From Ramlibacter monticola (lineage in GTDB: Bacteria; Pseudomonadota; Gammaproteobacteria; Burkholderiales; Burkholderiaceae_C): a stretch of DNA of 64,000 bases. The DNA lies in the NCBI RefSeq assembly GCF_016722785.1, contig NZ_JAEQNE010000002.1, forward strand, positions 1,054,001-1,118,000, in the 5' to 3' direction. A program made the translations under genes and the position numbers. Of this stretch, positions 50,594 through 53,563 are shown in pieces (position 1 is the first letter of the stretch; every line of letters starts with the position of its first letter). The notes below the pieces were generated by a model. It was given only the letters and a program-made list of their open reading frames with translations. It was not told the DNA's origin and made no database searches.

Positions 50594-50597
<4 letters not shown>
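48993..50597 (-). CDS. glpD: Aerobic glycerol-3-phosphate dehydrogenase
   Basis: This membrane-associated FAD enzyme oxidises sn-glycerol 3-phosphate to dihydroxyacetone phosphate and passes electrons to ubiquinone. The 534-residue protein has the FAD motif [20 protein letters not shown] (about residues 28-47), the family signature [20 protein letters not shown] (about 66-85) and [20 protein letters not shown] near the C-terminal part. The start is a GTG whose last two bases overlap the glpK stop (GTGA), so the two enzymes are coupled and feed glycerol into glycolysis. Confidence 0.95.
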
Positions 50598-52093
<1,496 letters not shown>

Positions 52094-52126
52094 GGGCCGG
52101 CAGCGTAACCCAAGGCCGTGGGACCG

Positions 52127-52397
52127 GGGGTCTGCGCGGCAGAGAAACGGGCCTGCGTTGGGTCTGCAAGGGGCGGGATGCTAGGCGCCGGAGCGGGTCA
52201 AGCCTGGCTGGCTTGACCCGCTCCGGCAACGACGCAGACGGCCCCTTGCAGGCCCAACCCTCCGGGCCGGGGTCTGGGGGCCCGCCATGCGTCGTTGCAT
52301 ACTCCTTGCGTACATAAAGTACGCGGCGATCGTATGCGCCTAGCCTGCCGGGCCCCCAGACCCCGGCGCAGGCCCGTTTCTCTGCCGCACAGACCCC
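52127..52397. repeat. Nested and competing inverted repeats, about 270 bp
   Basis: The 318-bp gap between the divergent glpK and esterase-like genes is almost wholly palindromic. Outer arms 52127-52157 and 52367-52397 are 31 bp with one mismatch. Inside are 17-bp arms (52158-52174/52241-52257, one mismatch), a perfect 18-bp stem with a five-base loop (52187-52204/52210-52227, GCCGGAGCGGGTCAAGCC), 21-bp arms (52266-52286/52347-52367, one mismatch), GCATAC/GTATGC (52297-52302/52332-52337) and GCGTAC-ATAAA-GTACGC (52308-52324). A further pair, GCAACGACGCA (52226-52236) with its complement at 52288-52298, would compete with these. No coding sequence is seen. Confidence 0.92.
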
Positions 52398-52411
52398 TGG
52401 ACTCGCCCGCC

Positions 52412-53563
52412 ATGCCGTTGCCTTCCGTTCCCACCCTGTCGCGCCGCACGCTGCTGCGCGGCGCCGCCGCGGCCTGCGCGCTCGCCGCCACCGGCTGCGC
52501 CACGCGTGCGCCCTCCCCGCCGCCGCAGGGCCTGTCGCAATTGCGACTGCTCGGAGAGAAGATCCTGCCGCACGGACTGCAGGTGGCGGGCACCACCGTC
52601 GGCGGCCTCTCGGGCATCGACCACGACCCGGCGACCGGCCTGTGGGTCGCCATGTGCGACGACCGTTCCGAGTTGCAGCCCGCGCGCTTCTACACCCTGC
52701 GCGTCGACCTGCGCCCGGCCGGCCTCGACGTGGAAGTGCTGGACGCGATCACGCTGCGCCAGGCCACCGGCACGCCCTTCCCCAAGCGCCAGCTCGGAGG
52801 CGAGGTGGTCGACCCCGAATCGATCCGCCTGCTGCCCGGGCGCCGCGGCATCCTGTGGACCAGCGAGGGCGACTATCCCGCCAACCAGTCGCCGACCCTG
52901 CGCGAGTCGCGTCTCGACGGCAGCCTGGTGCGCAACTTCGAAGTGCCCGCCATGCTGCAGTTCGGGCGCCCCGGCAGCGGCCCGCGCGCCAACCTCACCT
53001 TCGAAGGTCTCGCGCTGTCGCCCGACGCGCGCACGGCCTGGGTCGGCATGGAGGCGGCGCTGCACCAGGACGGCCCCGAGCCCGCGGTCGGCCGCCCGGG
53101 CGGGCCCTGCCGCTTCACCGCCTTCGACGTGGCGAGCGGCCGCGCCGTGCGCCAGGTCGCCTACATCCCCGACCCGATCCCGCAGGCGCCCGCGCTGCCA
53201 GGCGGGGGGGACAACGGCGTGAGCGAGATCCTGATGATCGACGCCGACCGCATGCTGGTGCTGGAGCGCGCCTACATGGCGGGCGTCGGCATGTCGCTGC
53301 GCATCTACGAGATCGACACGCGGGAGGGCAGCGACACGCTGGCGATGCCGCGGCTGCAGGAAGGCGCCTACCGCGCCTGCGGCAAGCGCTTCGTCGCCGA
53401 CCTGTCCCAGCTCGGCCTCTCCCGCCTCGACAACACCGAAGGCATGTGCTGGGGCCCGCGCCTGCCCGGCGGGCGGCGCTCGCTGGTGGTGGTGAGCGAC
53501 GACAATTTCAGCTCCAAGCAGGTCACGCAATTCGCGGCCTTCGAATACCTGGGACAGGAATGA
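52412..53563 (+). CDS. Tat-exported lipoprotein with esterase-like phytase domain
   Basis: This 383-residue secreted protein starts with a twin-arginine lipoprotein signal (SRRTLLRGAAAACALAATGC, the last residue being the lipidated Cys). The remainder is the esterase-like phytase domain, a beta-propeller-type fold of uncertain activity: VGGLSGIDHDPATGLWVAMC, GGEVVDPESIRLLPGRRGIL, FEGLALSPDARTAWVGMEAA and GVSEILMIDADRMLVLERAY mark the repeated blades. The start at 52412 is chosen because the signal begins there. It overlaps the start of proC by a few bases, so the two are likely cotranscribed. Substrate is unknown; phosphoesters are a guess from the family. Confidence 0.85.
   Translation: MPLPSVPTLSRRTLLRGAAAACALAATGCATRAPSPPPQGLSQLRLLGEKILPHGLQVAGTTVGGLSGIDHDPATGLWVAMCDDRSELQPARFYTLRVDLRPAGLDVEVLDAITLRQATGTPFPKRQLGGEVVDPESIRLLPGRRGILWTSEGDYPANQSPTLRESRLDGSLVRNFEVPAMLQFGRPGSGPRANLTFEGLALSPDARTAWVGMEAALHQDGPEPAVGRPGGPCRFTAFDVASGRAVRQVAYIPDPIPQAPALPGGGDNGVSEILMIDADRMLVLERAYMAGVGMSLRIYEIDTREGSDTLAMPRLQEGAYRACGKRFVADLSQLGLSRLDNTEGMCWGPRLPGGRRSLVVVSDDNFSSKQVTQFAAFEYLGQE

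Follow-up and report, generated by a model that had tools for sequence, protein, structure and literature searches.

A two-armed palindrome beside glpK in Ramlibacter monticola is probably one copy of a dispersed non-autonomous mobile element

Introduction

In Ramlibacter monticola, most of the 318 bp between the start codons of a glpK-like gene and a divergent phytase-like gene is filled by inverted repeats stacked inside one another. The question raised by this locus is what such an arrangement represents and how it came to lie there. A first-pass annotation had proposed a non-autonomous mobile element, a composite REP-like element, or a regulatory structure. We analyzed the feature within the window (the whole stretch of DNA under study, 64,000 nucleotides) and compared it with sequences of its genome, genus, and family. 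With a probability of roughly 85% for the explanation as a whole, we consider it a diverged copy of a mobile element that is non-autonomous (a MITE, broadly defined), probably a MITE-like passenger moved in trans. The parts and neighbors are listed below by window coordinates and strand (a dot where none applies).

52128..52396, +: whole element, 269 bp, end type F1 (IS1182-type ends)
52124..52127,. : left junction, here CCGG and in many sister copies CTAG
52397..52400,. : right junction, here CTGG and again CTAG in many sister copies
52128..52156, +: 29-bp left arm of the outer stem, opening with the 16 nt GGGTCTGCGCGGCAGA
52368..52396, +: 29-bp right arm of the outer stem
52157..52258, +: arm 1 of the Y, a 102-nt hairpin
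52180..52188, +: conserved arm motif GCTAGGCGC, 5' side of arm 1, mean column identity 0.97 in 36 copies
52226..52236, +: conserved arm motif GCAACGACGCA, 3' side of arm 1, half of the crossing pair
52259..52265, +: 7-nt linker CCTCCGG separating the arms
52266..52367, +: arm 2 of the Y, a 102-nt hairpin with the conserved motifs inverted relative to arm 1
52288..52298, +: arm motif in inverted orientation, TGCGTCGTTGC, second half of the crossing pair
52336..52344, +: further inverted arm motif, GCGCCTAGC, 3' side of arm 2
50594..52093, -: neighboring glpK-like FGGY kinase
52412..53563, +: neighboring phytase-like/esterase-like protein (PF13449)

Results

The palindromes fold as a Y

The element lies 34 bp from the start of glpK (52093) and 15 bp from that of the phytase/esterase-like gene (52412). 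Frames entirely within it reach 44 aa at most. The nested inverted repeats are real: the pairs were recovered computationally, and the minimum free energy of -253.9 kcal/mol compares with -156.2 +/- 6.1 in 100 shuffles, none of which was as good (z about -16). The outer arms (52124-52162/52362-52400) match over 39 nt at 90%, and inside them lie pairs of 25 nt at 84% (52157-52181/52234-52258), 18 nt at 100% (52187-52204/52210-52227), and 25 nt at 92% (52266-52290/52343-52367). The earlier statement that the long arms differ by at most one base is correct for the 31-bp core (52127-52157/52367-52397), in which one mismatched base was read by eye; it does not extend to the full-length arms at 84%, 90%, and 92%. 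The fold is a Y composed of the outer stem and the two 102-nt arms separated by the linker. Copies from many assemblies, including the single-contig genomes G057 and G059, repeat this layout, which makes an assembly artefact very unlikely.

The seventh, crossing pair (52226-52236/52288-52298; 11 nt, 100%) had led to the proposal that single strands could switch between two folds. This pair consists of an arm motif and its inverted copy, and imposing it on the fold raises the energy by 18 kcal/mol (-210.3 vs. -228.4). Across 36 copies, 349 of 396 cells are paired in this helix, as expected of two conserved motifs, and more than one Watson-Crick type is found in only 2 of its 11 pairs. Fold switching is not supported, given this energy cost and the scant covariation.

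Copies are dispersed in the genome, the genus, and the family

A search of the 6.14-Mb host genome with a 301-bp query located seven full-length places at 87-100% identity, plus fragments; the matches total 39 when partial copies and arm self-matches are counted. With the host's own genome counted, matches were found in 28 of 60 genomes of the genus (E <= 0.001), and in 31 of 399 genomes and 20 of 141 genera of the family (E <= 1e-6, only two candidates per genome scored), where full-length matches span 258-268 bp. The genome-wide check suggested at first pass thus did return dispersed copies. We delimited 63 copies in 21 genomes. The 53 that are full length were aligned and measure 265-270 bp between terminal bases, with a common layout of an outer stem of ~30 bp, two arms of ~100 nt, and a short linker. 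One-armed and stem-only forms are also present, as are a few truncated loci lacking the outer stem. At one locus (L260, G174:C366), a one-armed and a full Y element flank a frame that looks, as judged by eye, like a glycosyltransferase.

Two copies of a sister family, F2, lie at separate loci in the host genome and share all of their 267 bp (100% identity), which indicates recent movement. No match was found in plasmids when one F1 and one F2 copy served as queries. At 269 bp, with no coding capacity, 29-bp terminal inverted repeats (the outer stem), and multiple dispersed copies, the feature has several of the properties by which MITEs are recognized.

One core lies beneath ends of both IS1182 and IS630 type

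The F1 ends, to which the window copy belongs, typically read CTAG-GAGCCTG.GCGGCAGA, and the F2 ends, also present in the host genome, read CTAG-TGTCCTGTCCC. Further end types with the same layout exist, for example CTAGGGCCTGTTCACAC and GGAGCCTGTCGGGC; elements L252, L258, and L259 are same-layout Y elements whose further end type starts with (C)TAGGGCCTG. When one copy of each family was compared, F1 arm 1 aligned with the reverse complement of F2 arm 2 over 74 nt, 66 of them identical (hand count). As judged from this alignment, the F1 and F2 cores are homologous.

The left 16 nt of the window copy, GGGTCTGCGCGGCAGA, correspond to GAGTCTGCGCGGCAGA in the IS1182-type ends of L327 and L329. 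F1 ends (n = 88) match the best IS1182-type end at a mean of 15.4 of 17 nt, against 8.7 for IS630-type ends, although this similarity is partly built in because the F1 partner set was picked by end pattern; the enclosed transposase is free of that bias. F2 ends (n = 38) show the reverse, with means of 14.7 of 17 nt to IS630-type and 7.7 to IS1182-type ends. Four F1-ended elements of 1525, 1547, 1553, and 1557 bp occur in other genera of the family, each bounded by CTAG on both sides; it should be noted that the pattern that found these 1.5-kb elements already demanded TAG. The NCBIfam IS1182 scan covered three of their transposases, and against the cut-off of 270 bits L327 (370.6) and L328 (387.7) pass while L326 (205.8) fails; the frame of L329 looks split and was left out. 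No F1 ends paired at 1.5 kb were seen in the 60 genomes of the genus (list inspected by eye). For F2, the transposases of two elements of ~1.16 kb (L219, L220) pass the IS630 cut-off. Together with 30 loci from a family-wide search, these make up 32 IS630-type loci; CTAG borders 24 of them on both sides and 2 on one side, and 6 have no such ends. DDE_3 (the IS630 type) was not found in the host genome or in 13 of the 14 others searched; a protein search recovered a short IS630 fragment in G006, which is among those 13.

At the level of sequence, then, the folding core is found under at least two unrelated transposase types, IS1182 and IS630. The dispersed copies, the orthologous site of a sister copy at which the element is absent (see below), and the ends in common with autonomous IS1182- and IS630-type elements all support the proposal of a non-autonomous mobile element. 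The companion statement, that the feature resembles no known insertion sequence, fails at the ends, which match IS1182-family elements. A resemblance to Tn3-type ends was considered at first and dropped given the family ends and the CTAG junctions.

Other miniatures were encountered in these searches. The F1-ended search returned L330-L336 (167 bp each), a different group in which a single long hairpin is the usual form and several members carry a CCATAGC..GCTATGG tip, as well as a 69-bp stem-only element (L337) and one of 155 bp (L340). An F2-ended element of 480 bp (L221, G056:C18) contains a longest noticed frame of 145 codons.

Most copies are at CTAG, often at gene ends

Copies lie mostly at CTAG. 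TA is present on both sides in 19 of 44 F1 junction rows, on one side in 14, and on neither in 11, the window copy with its CCGG/CTGG junctions being among the last; of 22 F2 rows, three longer elements among them, 16 have TA at both ends, 6 at one, and none at neither. The F2 copy L217, a young copy, has a left flank ending in GCATGCTAG and a right junction reading CCAC. The element is absent from all eight orthologous loci that were compared. The edge site reads CTAG in L271 and L275, GATAG in five, and neither in L280; in G038 (L275) both L217 flanks are in place. Among the loci kept, the closest relative of the window's glpK is L067, in a MAG labelled Ramlibacter (86% protein identity), where ~57 bp separate the two start codons (hand count) and no element is present. 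A CTAG there stands opposite the window's CCAG at the element edge, in a short, poor alignment that is only suggestive.

CTAG is scarce in the window, with 8 occurrences where base composition predicts 178.6 and trinucleotides predict 46.3. Two of the eight are inside the element, and four of the remaining six end a coding frame. Among the 63 delimited copies, a coding frame stops at the left junction only in 13, at the right only in 13, at both in 9, and at neither in 28, so that 35 abut at least one such frame; the gene context is convergent for 24, tandem for 17, divergent for 5, perhaps within a gene for 4, and unclassed for 13. Gene calls followed a crude GC3 rule, and these stop and context counts are therefore approximate. 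The junction stops show no enrichment over the window's few CTAG sites, and they are frequent because the target CTAG is often a stop codon. The first base of the element is G and its last is C, so TAG can be left on both sides after insertion at TA. A target that is scarce and often a stop, with TAG left on both sides, would go some way to explaining how genes tolerate insertions at their ends. We also considered whether a copy, L216, had restored the native stop of its left gene, a leucyl aminopeptidase (PF00883), and found no support for this, as five of five relatives extend 1-8 residues beyond the end of that gene (hand count). The CTAACC end of the right neighbor of L216 is also present in a relative without the element.

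Pairing is maintained in the stems, and two motifs are conserved

Across 36 F1 copies, 63 of 104 stem pairs show changes on both sides that preserve pairing, and 98.3% of cells pair; in 17 F2 copies, both-side changes are seen in 41 of 108 pairs. None of 500 shuffles reached the F1 covariation values. Such shuffles take no account of relatedness; slid structures do, and in these the pairing falls to 33-42%. In 14 independent close pairs of copies (8 F1, 6 F2), we counted 15 double Watson-Crick changes, 44 single changes, and 2 other double changes, where about 0.4 double changes are expected under independent change (hand arithmetic). Double changes, double transversions among them, separate copies that are 3-5% apart, while in the six closest pairs (>97.5% identity) the stem changes are single, bar one uncompensated double. 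The linker reads CCTTCGG in 22 of the 36 aligned F1 copies and is inverted, CCGAAGG, in 2. Template switching is described as able to invert spacers (PMC8604942, PMC8794818), as is seen for this linker. The double changes and the inverted linker point to template switching between the arms, from which we infer that the element folds in the cell; compensation under selection is a possible alternative source of the double changes.

It could be argued that homogenization of the palindrome by template switching accounts for the covariation by itself, the core being unselected. The double changes between copies only 3-5% apart and the inverted linkers agree with this reading, which we regard as possible though doubtful. 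The most conserved segments of the element are the arm motifs GCTAGGCGC and GYAACGACGCA (0.94-0.97), followed by the linker (0.93), the outer stem (0.92), the upper stems (0.82-0.88), and the lower stems (0.77-0.80). Template switching alone does not explain strongly conserved motifs that are weakly paired, nor does it explain a near-fixed length and a common core under different ends, and some single changes remain uncorrected.

A second reading takes the Y core as a functional structured nucleic acid, a 3'-end RNA or a single-stranded DNA ligand, selected for itself and merely carried by the transposon ends, perhaps as a BIME-like barrier or stabilizer at gene ends. The conserved motifs speak for it, as do the homologous core under IS1182-type and IS630-type ends, core matches under two further end types, the 24 of 63 copies between convergent genes, and the 35 with a coding frame stopping at a junction. 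On the other side, 28 copies have no such frame, the window copy lies between divergent genes, and no terminator with a T run is present there. Rfam gave no match above the gathering threshold at 12 loci holding family members, and only hairpin-like scores below threshold in the window region. The mismatch counts are likewise divided. In arm 1, G.T far exceeds A.C (73 to 4 in F1, 64 to 1 in F2), as would suit an RNA, but the bias is not uniform in arm 2 (11 to 32 in F1, 19 to 8 in F2) or in the outer stem (7 to 8 and 4 to 18). This unevenness singles out no one strand and decides neither for an RNA-only reading nor for DNA. The opposite strand of a UNCG loop reads C-GNA-G, which forms a stable DNA mini-hairpin. 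The UNCG loop of the linker is therefore indecisive as a sign of RNA, and two copies carry the inverted GAA. Taken as a whole, we find this second reading unlikely.

The hairpins and the frequent intergenic location could also suggest a REP/BIME/REPIN-type element moved by a Y1 (RAYT) transposase reading a hairpin on single-stranded DNA, and PF01797 is indeed present in 58 of 60 genomes of the genus. The gene is present irrespective of the element, however, and was not found in G017, which carries a copy. No copy lies near any of the 13 Y1 loci examined, where just three matches (25-31 nt, E about 1e-3) were seen, and the ends match those of DDE elements. A RAYT/REP origin was rejected on these absences and on the independence of Y1 presence from the element, and we hold the composite REP-like reading to be very improbable. 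The Y1 gene itself (for example G000:C14:382163-382492) is usually single, and 11 of the 13 loci have no hairpin above the threshold used.

A regulatory structure conserved at glpK, in favor of which the element fills most of the start-codon gap, is almost certainly not the answer, since many copies lie at other loci, the closest relative's glpK locus has no element, and a scan of 52000-52500 for promoters and terminators found nothing, including no sigma-70-like site.

Discussion

We return to the diverged copy of a mobile element as the preferred explanation. An IS1182-type transposase supplied in trans would have acted on the ends and thereby inserted the element into a CTAG between the divergent glpK and phytase-like genes. 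Inside the cell, the arms would fold on the single-stranded DNA of replication, as RNA, or both. Template switching, in which one arm serves as the template for the other, would preserve their symmetry at least in part, while the conserved motifs may be kept by selection on a putative partner. As a tentative extension, to which we give less than even odds, the two-armed core might be a portable folding module that is selected as a structure, is recognized by a protein of the host or the element, and has spread through the bacterial family under unrelated CTAG-targeting transposon ends (IS1182, IS630, and perhaps others), often at gene stops and leaving genes unbroken.

The element ties a class of short bacterial repeats to two unrelated transposases via one common covarying core. 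This makes testable both whether DNA folding aids the movement or survival of a passenger and by what means such large nested palindromes persist. A way in which elements that seek CTAG might spare genes is suggested as well, through a rare target that is often a stop codon and that the element end can resupply. In one open-access library, covered by titles and abstract openings, we found no description of such an element.

Among known systems, REP, BIME, and REPIN sequences are similar in being extragenic hairpins often near gene ends, whereas the present element is longer and has transposon-type ends, and a RAYT link was not found. ISY100, of the IS630/Tc1-mariner group, duplicates its TA target; its in vitro products are reported as normal in 34 of 39 cases, with three showing a one-sided TA, and the same paper cites work on the preference of IS630 for TA in CTAG (PMC2170065). 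ISY100-type elements are autonomous, and ends of this kind are present here in the F2 sister family only. Pseudomonas syringae has MITEPsy1, a 100-bp MITE listed with 'IS5?' that inserts at CTAG or YTAA, has ends in common with an IS, and has a demonstrated transposition (PMC3189936); the consulted part of its description mentions no two-armed core. RUP of Streptococcus pneumoniae is likewise a short interspersed repeat with extensive secondary structure, its ends are like those of the IS630-family IS630-Spn1, and its movement in trans has been hypothesized (PMC3049150). RUP is described there as a simple 107-bp unit with IS630-type ends, whereas the element studied here has a two-armed covarying core of ~270 bp that is combined with the ends of either of two transposase families, those of the window copy being of the IS1182 type.
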